Assembly (NCBI RefSeq): GCF_000174015.1 | Contig: NZ_ACFE01000001.1 | Span: 372,001-436,000, forward strand | Reading direction: 5' to 3' | DNA length: 64,000 nt | Origin: Lancefieldella rimae ATCC 49626 | Lineage (GTDB): Bacteria; Actinomycetota; Coriobacteriia; Coriobacteriales; Atopobiaceae | Position numbers and translations under genes: made by a program | In this document: positions 40,009 through 43,594 of the stretch, piece after piece | Numbering within the stretch: the stretch's first letter is position 1 | How the letters are laid out: every line of letters starts with the position of its first letter | Notes under the pieces: generated by a model | The model's database searches: none | Told to the model about the DNA's origin: nothing | What the model saw: the letters and a program-made list of their open reading frames with translations, nothing else

Positions 40009-40680
40009 TTAAAATAACCTTATTCGGTCTAACTGATTGAGCCAGTTTTTCTTAAGTTTTCTCTTACTCTCAAAAAAGATCTCTTCCGAACGCGAAAGCT
40101 TTCCCTCATCAGCCTTTTTCGCAGCAAGTTCGAGTGTGCAGATGAGATCTGCTGACTGGAAGAGACGATAGTCCGAGGGTATAACCTTACGAAAATCAAC
40201 GTCGAAGAAAACGGATCCGAATACAGTGCCAATAAGCTCAGTGACAGGTGCCTGCCCATTGTCATAGTAAACAATAACATGGTCAAATGACAGAAAGTAC
40301 TCCATATGATCGCGTAAGAATCCGGAAAGCTCACGTGCAAGCCGAGTCTTAAGACGTATACGGTCAGAACACTCTTGTTTTTTCACGACAATAGTAAAGA
40401 AATGTACCCCAGAATGACGGGTAAATGCAAAGAGAGCACCTGCAAGAGCCCTTCTTGTAGAGAGTGAGAGTGATGAAAACTCGCCTTCACGGCGCACGAT
40501 AGGACCCGCATGGACTACCTGCGAGGACGGTAAACCAAGTTTGAGAACCCTCTGTTCAAATCTAGAAAGTTGTTCGGCAATAGAGTGATTCTGCTCATGA
40601 AAGACAAGTGTGAGGAGATAGTAGTCAGAATGGACACCGAAGTCACCTGATTCATCAACAAAAATACTGAGTTCAGACAT
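40009..40680 (-). CDS. DUF3800 domain protein
   Basis: 223 aa. It starts SELSIFVDESGDFG, the DUF3800 hallmark (D-E-S-G), followed by YYLLTLVFHE, HAGPIVRREGEF, VIVYYDNGQ and the C-terminal LFQSADLICTLELAAKK with the conserved Q-AD. The fold is predicted RNase H-like; the function is unknown, and members turn up in mobile and defence-related contexts. ATG 40680 is chosen; the frame is open upstream only through the structured leader at 40702-40760. Confidence 0.85.
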   Translation of the reverse strand: MSELSIFVDESGDFGVHSDYYLLTLVFHEQNHSIAEQLSRFEQRVLKLGLPSSQVVHAGPIVRREGEFSSLSLSTRRALAGALFAFTRHSGVHFFTIVVKKQECSDRIRLKTRLARELSGFLRDHMEYFLSFDHVIVYYDNGQAPVTELIGTVFGSVFFDVDFRKVIPSDYRLFQSADLICTLELAAKKADEGKLSRSEEIFFESKRKLKKNWLNQLDRIRLF

Positions 40681-40701
40681 TCGACTCCTAATTACACAAA
40701 T

Positions 40702-40760
40702 GGCGGGGGACTTCCCCCGCCGTAGGGTGGACCAAGGCCACAAAAGCCAGTCCAACTACG
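40702..40760 (-). ncRNA. Structured leader upstream of the DUF3800 gene (candidate DUF3800-type RNA motif)
   Basis: Two adjacent helices on the minus strand. P1: CGTAG (40760-40756) pairs with CTACG (40725-40721), TGGAC with GTCCA, and GGC with GCC, with small internal loops. P2: GGCGGGGG-AAGT-CCCCCGCC, an 8-bp GC stem with a tetraloop, directly abutting P1. Published comparative work described several RNA motifs named for lying upstream of DUF3800 genes; membership of one of these is inferred. The leader ends 21 bp before the start codon. Confidence 0.55.
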
Positions 40761-40871: not shown

Positions 40872-41672
40872 TTAGATGCGCTGAAACACAATATACCGGT
40901 TAAGATTTCCCTCTTTCCCATCTGCACTAAACTGTGCACACATACGAGCCTGAGGGGTAAGTTGAGCAACAAGATCTTCAAGCTCGCCTTGGGTAAAATG
41001 ATGACAGTAGCGCCACGTATGGGCCTGATTTTGCCAACCCAACAGATAGTCATTTTTCTCCAAAGCATCCGAGCTTATCCGGAGCTGTTGCAAAGCCTGA
41101 GCGGTTGTTTTATTGGCTTTGGCAGCTAATTTTGCACTGTTCATAAACTGCCAAAATGAAACGCAGAGATACCCTCCCGGTTTGGTTTTATCTAGCAGAG
41201 TACATAAAAGTCGTATTCGATTTTGAACTCCTGGTACATGATGCAGAAGACCAAAGGCAACCACCAAATCACAAGCCGATACCTTCAACTGAGTTTCCAA
41301 GGTGGTATCTAGGAGGCTATCAACTAAATCCATTTCAATGAAGGTAATTTGGGCGCCCGTCATGCCACTTTGAACCAGCGCCTCACAATTATCTACCGCA
41401 AAATACGATGCAGGTTGCACTCCTGCTTGATCCGTCAAAAATCGAGCAAAACGCAGATTCCCACACCCCACATCAAGCACGCAGGGCTTCTCGACAGCCA
41501 TAAAACAAGACATGACATCCAAGCAGTGTTGCCAGCCTTGCCAAGGCATCTGTCGTGTGGCAGAGAAACTCTGAGCCTGCTGTGTGTAGAACTCAGAGGT
41601 AATTCGACTAAGCTGACGAGCGGTCTGCTTACTGATAGATGAGCCATTAGAAATGTTTCTGCAAGTATTCAT
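40872..41672 (-). CDS. Class I SAM methyltransferase, Trm9-like
   Basis: 266 aa. The N-terminal EFYTQQAQSFSATRQMPWQ resembles the Trm9/ALKBH8 methyltransferase signature (IYDxIAxxFSxTRxxPWP), followed by the SAM-binding CVLDVGCGNLRFARFL, FAVDNCEALV, and VAFGLLHHV with the catalytic-region aspartate replaced by LLHH-type spacing. Trm9 enzymes methyl-esterify 5-carboxymethyluridine at tRNA wobble position 34. The gene is head-to-head with elp3 (68 bp apart), whose product makes that carboxymethyl group, which supports the call. Other class I methyltransferases cannot be excluded. Confidence 0.65.
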   Translation of the reverse strand: MNTCRNISNGSSISKQTARQLSRITSEFYTQQAQSFSATRQMPWQGWQHCLDVMSCFMAVEKPCVLDVGCGNLRFARFLTDQAGVQPASYFAVDNCEALVQSGMTGAQITFIEMDLVDSLLDTTLETQLKVSACDLVVAFGLLHHVPGVQNRIRLLCTLLDKTKPGGYLCVSFWQFMNSAKLAAKANKTTAQALQQLRISSDALEKNDYLLGWQNQAHTWRYCHHFTQGELEDLVAQLTPQARMCAQFSADGKEGNLNRYIVFQRI

Positions 41673-41740
41673 GTGTAAATTTTACTCCACCGCCCTATCC
41701 TAACAAACGTAAAGTCAGACCAATTGCATATAATACGAGT

Positions 41741-43594
41741 ATGGATGAACTCATTTTGGACATATTGCAACAACTTCGTGCGAACTCTCAGGGCGCTCTT
41801 GATGCGCACCAGCTTGAAGTATTACTCAACTCCCATAACAGTGGGATTAACAGCAGTATCAACAGTTCAGATCGCAAAAAACTGATACCCAAGCGCGCCA
41901 TCCTTCCCTATTTTTTACGGGTTAAGGACCAAAATACCAAGCTGTGGCGCTCATGGAATGTTACACCAGAGCTTGAAGCGCGCTTTATACAATCGGTTCG
42001 TATGAAACCACGTCGCACTGCCTCAGGTGTAGCAACCATCACGGTTATCACGCGGCCACACACTTGCTCAAGTAACTGCATATACTGCCCCTGTGATCTG
42101 CGTATGCCCAAAAGCTATATTGCCAATGAACCCGCCTGTCAGCGTGCAGAGCTGGCATTTTTTGATCCTTATATACAAGTTGCTGCCCGCCTGCAGGCAC
42201 TGCATCAGATGGGCCATTCCACGGACAAGATTGAACTTATCGTATTAGGTGGAACCTGGAGCGACTATCCCACAAGCTATCAATACTGGTTTATACGCGA
42301 GCTATTTCGCGCGCTCAATGAATGGCCGCGCTCACCTCAACATATCGAGAAGCGCACGGATTGGTATCGATCTTTTGGATTGCAAAATACAGAAGAGGCT
42401 CTGTCTTCGTTTGTTGCGTACCGGCAAGCAGCCATCAATACGGGAGCTGCAACATACAACCAAGCATTTCATGAGTTATACGATCCCAGCCAGTCACATC
42501 AAAAGGCATGGTCACACATGTGTGCCACATTTGACGACCTTCTCGAACAACAACACCGTAACGAGACTGCGGCTTGTCGCGTCGTAGGTCTGGTTATAGA
42601 AACACGTCCCGACACGATTACCCCCGATAACCTGCGCATGTTCAGACAGCTTGGGTGTACCAAAATACAAATCGGCATCCAAAGCACACGTCAAGAAATT
42701 CTTGACGCCAACCTGCGCCGCATGACTGTCGCACAGATAAAGCGCGCGTTCTCGCTTATCCGTCTTTATGGATTCAAAATTCATTCGCATCTGATGGTGA
42801 ACCTGTTGGGTGCAACACCCGAGGAAGACAAGTGCGACTTCAATAACTTTGTAACTGACCCGGGCTTTCTGCCAGATGAGATTAAGCTCTATCCTTGCGC
42901 ACTGGTAGCCGGCACGCAGCTCGTTAAGGCATACCGAGAAGGTCTCTGGCGTCCCTACTCCAAAGACGAGCTGGTGGATGTGCTCGTACACGACGTGTTG
43001 ACAGCTCCTGCATACGTGCGTATTTCTCGTATGATTCGCGACATTAGCTCTACCGATATTCTGGTGGGAAACAAACACACCAATTTGCGCCAAATGGTTG
43101 AGCAGCAGCTGAACACAGAGGAAAAAGCTGCGCATGTACAAGAAATCCGCTTTAGGGAAATCAACCAGCAACAGGTACACGCAGACGAACTCATATTGCA
43201 AGATCACGCATATACCACAGCCGTAAGCGACGAACACTTCTTGCAATGGGTAACTGCGGATAACAAAATCGCAGGCTTTTGCAGGCTTTCACTGCCACAT
43301 TGGGACGAGCTGGCAGCAGGCAGCTGTGACGTACGTGCGGATGAATTGTCAGTACAACCGGGTCAAGCGATGATTCGAGAATTACACGTCTATGGCCAGG
43401 CTTTATCTCTGGGCTCAGAGGGCTTATCGGCACAACATCAAGGCCTTGGGCAAAAGCTTCTGGCGCAAGCAGAAAAAATCGCCGCAGACGAAGGCTATGG
43501 CATCCTCAACGTAATTAGTTCCGTTGGCACACGCGCTTACTATCGTGCACAGGGCTTTAAGGATGCCGATCTATACCAGCAAAAGGAGTTGTAA
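41741..43594 (+). CDS. Elp3-like tRNA uridine(34) carboxymethyl-modifying radical SAM/GNAT enzyme
   Basis: 617 aa, full-length two-domain Elp3. The radical SAM core has the cluster motif THxCSSNCIYCPC near residue 110, MPKSYIANEPACQRA, LVIETRPDTITPDNL and QIGIQSTRQEIL; the GNAT domain at about 490-617 has MIRELHVYGQAL and GLGQKLLAQAEKIA for acetyl-CoA binding. It attaches a carboxymethyl group to U34 of tRNA from acetyl-CoA. Archaeal and some bacterial Elp3 act alone, as would be needed here since no other Elongator gene is visible. Confidence 0.9.
   Translation: MDELILDILQQLRANSQGALDAHQLEVLLNSHNSGINSSINSSDRKKLIPKRAILPYFLRVKDQNTKLWRSWNVTPELEARFIQSVRMKPRRTASGVATITVITRPHTCSSNCIYCPCDLRMPKSYIANEPACQRAELAFFDPYIQVAARLQALHQMGHSTDKIELIVLGGTWSDYPTSYQYWFIRELFRALNEWPRSPQHIEKRTDWYRSFGLQNTEEALSSFVAYRQAAINTGAATYNQAFHELYDPSQSHQKAWSHMCATFDDLLEQQHRNETAACRVVGLVIETRPDTITPDNLRMFRQLGCTKIQIGIQSTRQEILDANLRRMTVAQIKRAFSLIRLYGFKIHSHLMVNLLGATPEEDKCDFNNFVTDPGFLPDEIKLYPCALVAGTQLVKAYREGLWRPYSKDELVDVLVHDVLTAPAYVRISRMIRDISSTDILVGNKHTNLRQMVEQQLNTEEKAAHVQEIRFREINQQQVHADELILQDHAYTTAVSDEHFLQWVTADNKIAGFCRLSLPHWDELAAGSCDVRADELSVQPGQAMIRELHVYGQALSLGSEGLSAQHQGLGQKLLAQAEKIAADEGYGILNVISSVGTRAYYRAQGFKDADLYQQKEL

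Follow-up and report, generated by a model that had tools for sequence, protein, structure and literature searches.

Lancefieldella rimae ATCC 49626 possesses a gene pair that is probably a minimal bacterial pathway for making 5-methoxycarbonylmethyluridine at position 34 of tRNA (mcm5U34). It is made up of a stand-alone Elp3 and a Trm9-like methyltransferase (MT) that would operate without Trm112. The pair lies in the window, i.e., the whole stretch of 64,000 nucleotides analysed here. The preliminary description placed the two genes head-to-head at a distance of 68 bp, with a full-length Elp3 and an FSATRQMPW signature in MT, and this layout holds, both open reading frames being complete. 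The features of the pair are as follows:

40872..41672, minus strand: MT (P0001), Trm9-like class I SAM methyltransferase, complete ORF of 266 aa
41741..43594, plus strand: Elp3 (P0002), radical SAM and GNAT/KAT domains, complete ORF of 617 aa
41673..41740, no strand: divergent intergenic gap of 68 bp (from the coordinates), presumed to hold the promoters of both genes
41541..41567, minus strand: N-terminal FSATRQMPW signature, MT residues 36-44; the T, R and W are common to 5cm2 (yeast Trm9)
41001..41012, minus strand: RYCH motif, MT residues 221-224; R221 corresponds to Trm9 R241 and C223 to Trm9 Y243
40899..40901, minus strand: MT N258, corresponding to Trm9 N271, kept in 53/53 homologues and in 6/6 distant ones
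42065..42088, plus strand: radical-SAM CX3CX2C cysteines of Elp3 (C109, C113, C116), kept in 39/39 aligned sequences
42320..42538, plus strand: variable Elp3 segment of about 70 aa (approximately residues 194-266), extra to the solved Elp3 chains
43367..43558, plus strand: acetyltransferase active-site region of Elp3 (E547, H549, Y600), mapped on MinElp3 Q461, H463 and Y517

A promoter scan covering this gap returned two promoter-like sites, one of them on the minus strand at 41706-41679, as compared to a mean of 4.3 sites in shuffles; because the shuffles yield more sites, there is no excess and the scan carries no claim.

The proposed pathway would proceed in three steps. First, the KAT domain of Elp3 would hydrolyse acetyl-CoA and the radical SAM domain would attach the acetate to the C5 of U34, generating cm5U34, as the intact catalytic residues of Elp3 suggest. 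Second, MT would use SAM to methylate the carboxylate, without Trm112, generating mcm5U34; its relationship to Trm9, its conserved active-site residues and its genetic linkage to Elp3 all point to this step. Third, MnmA may thiolate some of these tRNAs into mcm5s2U34, the evidence for this step being the presence of the mnmA gene in the L. rimae genome. The candidate substrates are the U34 tRNAs encoded in the genome, namely Lys, Glu, Gln, Arg(UCU), Leu(UAA) and Gly(UCC), as read from 38 of the 44 tRNA loci (the six left out overlap others).

The genetic linkage was ascertained in 246 genomes of the class Coriobacteriia. With thresholds of E <= 1e-5 for MT and of a best E < 1e-50 for Elp3 (our own choice; the curated Elp3 cut-off was passed in 130/246), 136 genomes possess both genes, 138 possess Elp3, two possess Elp3 alone, none possesses MT alone and 108 possess neither. 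In G096 and G196, Elp3 is present and MT was sought but not found. The position of MT was available for 134 of the 136 genomes (G032 and G039 were left out), and in a few genomes split Elp3 matches were merged or one piece was chosen by hand. The two genes lie within 5 kb of each other in 129 of the 134 locatable pairs (121 divergent, seven on the same strand and one convergent); two of the remaining pairs share a contig but are widely separated (G136 and G163) and three are on different contigs. From these counts, the pairing of Elp3 with MT is beyond chance. Among the best 80 of 219 MT loci in named contigs, Elp3 is also present in 77 (67 divergent, nine same strand, one convergent); this set overlaps the 246 genomes, and thus is not an independent sample. 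At the level of the phylum, where the first few candidates per genome were scored in a sample overlapping that of the class, MT (E <= 1e-10) and Elp3 (E <= 1e-40) are found in an identical set of 32 genomes out of 396, 26 of which were already counted in the class. In four of the six genomes outside the class the genes are head-to-head on one contig, with about 233, 626, 635 and 1812 bp between the matches, and in the other two they are on different contigs. Hence, the conservation of the gene neighbourhood, which the preliminary description proposed to check, is strong.

Such linkage might merely reflect co-regulation through a shared promoter region, with MT methylating a small molecule or a protein. 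We regard this explanation as highly improbable, for MT never occurs without Elp3 in the 246 genomes, even where the two genes are apart on one contig (G136, G163), and the same pairing recurs with Elp3s from outside the class. The arguments in its favour come from the family matches of MT, which are general in Pfam (methyltransferase domains) and far under their cut-offs in NCBIfam (UbiG, TehB and others), and from the many small-molecule methyltransferases found among its fold neighbours, whereas the top match of the MT family among PDB sequences is Trm9.

Indeed, among the characterised families with sequences in the PDB, where Trm9 is represented by a single chain (5cm2_Z), the MT family is, judged by sequence comparison, closest to Trm9. 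First, 5cm2 is the top PDB match of the MT family profile (E 2.3e-7; next match 2.2e-4, CmoA being second) and again of a second MT profile (E 3e-7; next 7e-4), and hhalign aligns the MT family with a 5cm2 fragment (97.1%, E 7.3e-11). Second, six distant actinobacterial MTs have 5cm2 as their best match (E 1.8e-20, over residues 2-186 of the 205-residue chain) and match the class MT family over 232 columns (99.7%, E 1.9e-26), so that, at the level of sequence profiles, these distant homologues link the class family to Trm9. This link is visible with profiles only and not with the P0001 sequence alone, for which searches of Pfam, NCBIfam and PDB returned general methyltransferase matches or nothing significant. 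The Trm9 fragment compared directly to P0001 gave a non-significant E of 3.8, and values of up to E 3e-7 with other class MTs. One ordinary methyltransferase of the L. rimae genome outscores several class MTs against a distant MT. A reverse search of the L. rimae genome with the 126-residue Trm9 fragment gave no match and, having no positive control, shows nothing. The C-terminal third of MT, taken alone, has no Trm9 match in the PDB and reaches an hhalign probability of 4.5%, and the C-terminal correspondence between MT and Trm9 comes from the joint alignment and the distant intermediates.

Neither the fold nor the trees discriminate further. The AlphaFold2 model of MT has a mean pLDDT of 95.6; Foldseek lists 5cm2 sixth (E 7.2e-9), amid many other class I methyltransferases. 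The top VIA-align rows, at Z 18-19, are METTL6, NTMT/NRMT and DhpI; CmoM has 17.2, and 5cm2 is absent from the best 50 rows. As all these neighbours are class I methyltransferases, the fold comparison is non-discriminating. The MT trees are saturated, with long branches, and group Trm9 not with the class MTs but, with weak support, with the distant homologues and two ordinary L. rimae methyltransferases; a common clade of Trm9 and the class MTs is not rejected (p-AU 0.233, in a tree leaving out three long rows, i.e., two outgroup methyltransferases and CmoA). Six of the seven outgroup loci with other L. rimae methyltransferases gave an ORF; since the profile score used to choose it was very weak, some of these rows may stand for a protein other than the methyltransferase intended. 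We take the tree topology as evidence neither way.

The active-site residues bear on what MT methylates. According to passages of a study of yeast Trm9 (PMC5372719), mutation of R29, H115, R241 or N271 strongly affects tRNA affinity and activity. In the joint alignment these residues correspond to R40, H144, R221 and N258 of MT, the yeast numbering being transferred by means of two spacings, of 86 and 30 residues, that match in 5cm2, and each is kept in 53/53 aligned MT homologues (P0001 and 52 of the 80 loci), as are W44 and H224, with T39 in 50/53 and C223 in 51/53. This C223 stands at the position of the fifth Trm9 active-site residue, Y243, and the Y/C position of the RYCH motif differs among the distant homologues. 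Furthermore, the class MTs have invariants of their own, G46, W47, D208, W213 and G252, which differ from 5cm2 or are unaligned with it. These differences leave some room for an MT working in the same pathway on another acceptor, i.e., a different atom, a further-processed U34 side chain or a neighbouring anticodon-loop base of the Elp3-modified tRNAs; the linkage to Elp3 points to a shared process and says nothing on the methyl acceptor, and the structural neighbours include METTL6, a tRNA enzyme, and CmoM, which was solved with tRNA. We nevertheless find another acceptor unlikely, since, of the five Trm9 residues presumed to hold cm5U34, four are invariant in MT, the distant MTs align to Trm9 over almost the whole chain, and METTL6 is missing from the 52 PDB sequences that the MT profile matches at E up to 10.

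Turning to the partner of MT, Elp3 reaches 404.5 bits with TIGR01211 over residues 57-617 (cut-off 350), has Radical_SAM, Radical_SAM_C and Acetyltransf_1 Pfam domains over cut-off, and matches the solved Elp3 chains of the PDB with 5l7j on top (best E 7.7e-81). Its K163, E287, K346, K382, Y384 and Y600 are the counterparts of MinElp3 K150, E207, K266, K302, Y304 and Y517, and the position of MinElp3 Q461 is occupied by Glu, as in DmcElp3. The cluster cysteines and catalytic residues are invariant in all 39 aligned class sequences (P0002 and 38 of the 77 Elp3 loci). By these sequence criteria, Elp3 is catalytically intact. A segment of about 70 aa, which varies in length across the class, remains unaligned between two matched parts when compared to 5l7j, 6iaz and 6iad; the class Elp3s lack the linker cysteines of DmcElp3, and they reach at most about 430 bits with the Elp3 model versus about 600 for the six Elp3s from outside the class. 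One could argue from these features that Elp3 attaches a C5 side chain other than cm5 and that the pair makes another nucleoside. The presence of the residues reported to be required in MinElp3, the DmcElp3-like Glu and the invariance of the active site make this very improbable.

Returning to the mcm5U34 pathway, we lean towards the view that a bacterial mcm5(s2)U34 pathway extends across much of Coriobacteriia and a few other actinobacterial lineages, as a two-gene cassette of Elp3 and a Trm112-independent Trm9-like enzyme that would have been retained or gained together with two distinct Elp3 lineages. If so, the mcm5U modification would also occur in the common flora of the human gut and mouth.

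The searches for Trm112, MnmE and MnmA covered the L. rimae genome, and that for Trm112 also covered 14 control genomes. No match to Trm112 (PF03966, E 0.001) was found in L. rimae, while eight of the 14 control genomes were positive; E. coli also has a match to this family. Passages of PMC6382703 state that yeast Trm9 purified alone is inactive. Therefore MT would have to act without Trm112, unlike the characterised Trm9, and we name it Trm9-like instead of filing it as Trm9. Thus, the earlier proposal of a Trm9-like methyltransferase forming an mcm5U pathway with Elp3 is supported by the linkage, by Trm9 being the nearest solved relative and by the intact Elp3, most of the genomic checks that it named being in its favour, but the Trm112-like partner that was to be looked for was not found in the L. 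rimae genome, and the MT phylogeny that it also named points neither way.

According to passages of two reviews of 2020, Dehalococcoides is the bacterial clade with Elp3, direct evidence for the products being lacking (PMC7663514), and mcm5U is assigned to archaea and eukaryotes and not to bacteria, which get only cmnm5U, mnm5U and nm5U of this group (PMC7694415). In the openly licensed literature, we recognised no bacterial Trm9 or bacterial mcm5U pathway among the titles and abstract openings of the matches listed. Together, our data suggest that the gene pair, found in many bacteria of one class, including gut and mouth species, gives bacteria their own way to a tRNA modification that has until now been assigned to the other domains of life; the genes it resembles serve eukaryotes and some archaea to place a methyl ester on the wobble base. 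If true, this would add the third domain of life to the range of mcm5U, reveal how U34 can be decorated in some bacteria devoid of MnmEG, and provide a Trm9-like enzyme with no need for Trm112, useful to probe the role of Trm112. As the pair occurs in cultured bacteria, the question is directly testable by mass spectrometry.

As regards known systems, MnmE/MnmG is likewise a bacterial route to a C5-modified U34, but neither protein has a match over cut-off in the L. rimae genome, and MnmG occurs in one of the 246 class genomes (G071). The contrast with this route drawn in the preliminary description is thus borne out by the gene content, and weakened by the class genomes devoid of Elp3, which are also devoid of MnmG with the single exception of G071; hence, Elp3 is not a one-for-one replacement. 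CmoM esterifies a wobble-uridine carboxylate in bacteria. The cmo5U pathway resembles the present one in that CmoM is a structural neighbour of MT and CmoA its second PDB match, but the CmoA profile match is about three orders of magnitude weaker than that of Trm9, and the partner of MT is Elp3. Dehalococcoides mccartyi DmcElp3 (5l7j) is also a bacterial stand-alone Elp3; it differs from L. rimae Elp3 in its linker cysteines and in having no counterpart of the 70 aa segment, and the published passages on it mention no methyltransferase partner.

The archaeal Elp3-Trm9 cluster likewise combines a stand-alone Elp3 with a Trm9 homologue, as far as its published description goes: in passages of PMC2584109, Sulfolobus solfataricus has Elp3 without other Elongator subunits and the gene is clustered with a Trm9 homologue, and there is a prediction for Haloferax volcanii. 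A Trm112 match occurs in all four archaeal control genomes, whereas here the host is bacterial, has no such match, and the genes are mostly head-to-head. Finally, yeast Trm9-Trm112 is, with the ALKBH8 methyltransferase domain, among the closest known systems. When compared to yeast Trm9 via chain 5cm2, MT differs by the Cys at the position of Y243, by the segment that connects the core to the C-terminal part, by a low direct similarity and by a genome without a Trm112 match; it shares with yeast Trm9 four of the five mutated active-site residues, the N-terminal TR..W, the HH and the C-terminal R-Y-x-H ... D ... N motifs and, as we infer, the conversion of cm5U34 into mcm5U34.

The methyltransferase (MT) and Elp3 genes are divergent and separated by 68 bp, which agrees with the head-to-head arrangement reported in the preliminary description, in a genome of nine contigs (1.63 Mb; completeness 99.5%):

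40872-41672, minus strand: ORF of the methyltransferase gene (P0001), 266 codons
41741-43594, plus strand: ORF of the Elp3 gene (P0002), 617 codons

Among the named matches listed, the four closest to the MT are from Atopobium (71, 68, 67 and 63% identity). The adjoining minus-strand ORF (40009-40755) is presumably of the DUF3800 type, judging from its sequence start. Inspection by eye revealed a perfect TATAAT at 41729-41734, 6 nt ahead of the Elp3 ATG, no obvious ribosome-binding site upstream of this ATG and, on the opposite strand, a TAAAAT at 41684-41679, 6 nt ahead of the MT ATG. On this by-eye reading both mRNAs may be leaderless, a proposal to which a promoter scan gives no support.

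The most likely and best-supported reading of these sequences is that Elp3 would generate cm5U34, which the Trm9-like MT would then convert into mcm5U34 without Trm112. The support is strongest in the co-occurrence of the two genes and in the conservation of the active sites.

First, of 246 genomes of the class Coriobacteriia, 138 carry Elp3 (best E below 1e-50) and 136 carry the MT, all 136 falling within the 138, and 108 genomes have neither gene. Elp3 occurs alone in G096 and G196, both of them draft assemblies, and a whole-genome search found no MT in either. Their Elp3 frames start 1154 and 388 bases, respectively, from a contig start, and the intervening stretch holds no MT; these two cases are unclear and are no clean exceptions to the pairing. 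Both genes are missing from G056, which belongs to the same genus as the window's genome, and from G112, the genus mate of which (G134) has both. In the sample of 396 genomes of the phylum, the MT and Elp3 were each found in 32 genomes, with identical lists, 26 of these 32 being already counted in the class sample. Two irregular copies were observed. In G039 (locus L054, 4533-6300) an MT remnant lies beside an Elp3 that has lost its N-terminal third, as if one deletion had taken the start of each gene together with everything in between, and G058 carries a second, near full-length MT (contig C4, 255279-256082) on a contig other than that of Elp3.

Second, the pair is conserved as a neighbourhood: it lies within 5 kb in 129 of the 134 class genomes in which both genes were located (121 divergent, 7 same strand, 1 convergent), the remaining pairs being far apart (2) or on separate contigs (3). 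Elp3 is also present in 77 of the best 80 of 219 MT loci in named contigs, a sample that overlaps the class set. Outside the class, the genes are head-to-head on one contig in G277, G313, G489 and G301 (about 1.8 kb between them in the latter), and on different contigs in G450 and G479. Gaps of 2171-2192 bp occur in 18 cases of the class set, including G167 (locus L059, 3501-5290), where two additional ORFs separate the MT from Elp3, the first having a helix-turn-helix-like part by eye.

Third, four of five residues of Trm9 that matter for tRNA affinity and activity are retained. According to the accessible text of PMC5372719, the R29A, H115A, R241A, Y243A and N271A mutations of yeast Trm9 strongly affect tRNA affinity and activity. 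The yeast numbering was put on 5cm2, the solved Trm9 chain of Yarrowia lipolytica, by spacing (R5-H91, 86, as 29-115; R157-N187, 30, as 241-271), and a joint alignment placed these residues at R40, H144, R221, C223 and N258 of P0001. R40, H144, R221 and N258 are each present in 53 of the 53 family members, and the position of C223 (Y243 in Trm9) is a cysteine in 51 of them. Also invariant (53/53) and common to 5cm2 are W44, D67, G71, N72, D94, H145, R152, G167, W174, H224 and D251.

Fourth, P0002 reaches 404.5 bits on the curated Elp3 model (cut-off 350) and matches solved Elp3 chains, the best being the bacterial 5l7j (E 7.7e-81). The residues that mutational work found to be needed in archaeal Elp3, according to the accessible parts of PMC6367351 and PMC13315578 (K150, K266, Q461, Y517, E207, K302 and Y304) correspond, in an alignment with solved chains, to K163, K346, E547, Y600, E287, K382 and Y384 of P0002. 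The sole change is the glutamate at Q461, which is also found in DmcElp3, the Dehalococcoides mccartyi protein. The mapped catalytic residues, like the three cysteines of the cluster, do not vary among the 39 aligned class sequences. Compared with the solved chains, P0002 carries roughly 70 additional residues (194-266).

Regarding the kinship of the MT with Trm9, P0001 as a single sequence matches only the general class I methyltransferase domain, and its direct comparison with a Trm9 fragment is not significant (E 3.8); other class MTs reach values down to 3e-7. A profile of 28 MT homologues searched against 177635 PDB sequences retrieved Trm9 (5cm2) first (E 2.3e-7) and CmoA second (E 2.2e-4), while a second profile of 53 homologues gave 3e-7 for Trm9 and 7e-4 for the next match; hhalign with a 5cm2 fragment yielded 97.1%. 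The AlphaFold2 model of P0001 is confident (mean pLDDT 95.6), and a fold search with it did not discriminate between methyltransferases or single out Trm9. A common clade of MT and Trm9 was not rejected (p-AU 0.233), in trees that lack resolution and have weakly chosen outgroup rows.

More distant MTs occur in six genomes of the same phylum outside the class. Across the whole PDB, the best match to their profile was 5cm2 (E 1.8e-20), followed by 3l8d (1.3e-18, core only), and they align to residues 2-186 of 5cm2, including the TR..W and C-terminal RY.H elements. An alignment of them with the class family extends over 232 columns (99.7%, E 1.9e-26) and brings both motifs into line; an ordinary methyltransferase of the window's genome outscores several class MTs against one of them. 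At the position of C223 they have Cys, Phe, Tyr or Val. Because the distant MTs match both 5cm2 and the class family, with the motifs in register, the class family, the distant MTs and Trm9 form a connected series. On the Elp3 model, the Elp3s of these six genomes reach about 600 bits and those of class members at most 430, which we read as two Elp3 lineages that would share the same MT partner.

The proposed contrast with the MnmE/MnmG route holds in part. Neither MnmE nor MnmG was found over cut-off in the window's genome, and MnmG exceeded it in one of the 246 class genomes (9 of 14 controls positive). Nonetheless, Elp3 is no simple replacement for MnmEG, because nearly all class genomes without Elp3 are also without MnmG. 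Among Elp3 and MnmE/MnmG, Elp3 is the only U34 C5-side-chain route found. The single MnmG is in G071 (contig C8, 4785-6362), the Elp3-model match of which is weak. The window's genome has MnmA and encodes U34 tRNAs for Lys, Glu, Gln, Arg, Leu and Gly, with C34 partners alongside.

As to known systems, bacterial Elp3 occurs in Dehalococcoides (PMC7663514) and in numerous bacteria (PMC13315578), as far as the available portions of these papers report. Unlike DmcElp3, P0002 has no linker cysteines around residues 465-480 in the alignment; such cysteines are absent from eukaryotic Elp3s, according to the accessible part of PMC6367351. Whereas characterised Trm9 has a Trm112 partner, the Trm112-like partner looked for here did not emerge: no member of the family was found in the window's genome (8 of 14 controls positive). 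The weak points of the proposed pathway are that the trees lack resolution, that the product is a predicted one and that no Trm112 partner was found, and for these reasons we use the name "Trm9-like". In the parts available, PMC5372719 states that homologues of Trm112-interacting methyltransferases were not detected in bacteria, and PMC7694415 places mcm5U in archaea and eukaryotes; among openly licensed literature matches, no description of a bacterial Trm9 was recognised by title or abstract start. An Elp3-Trm9 gene cluster is known in Sulfolobus solfataricus, as the available text of PMC2584109 describes, and therefore the combination of the two genes is not without precedent in archaea.
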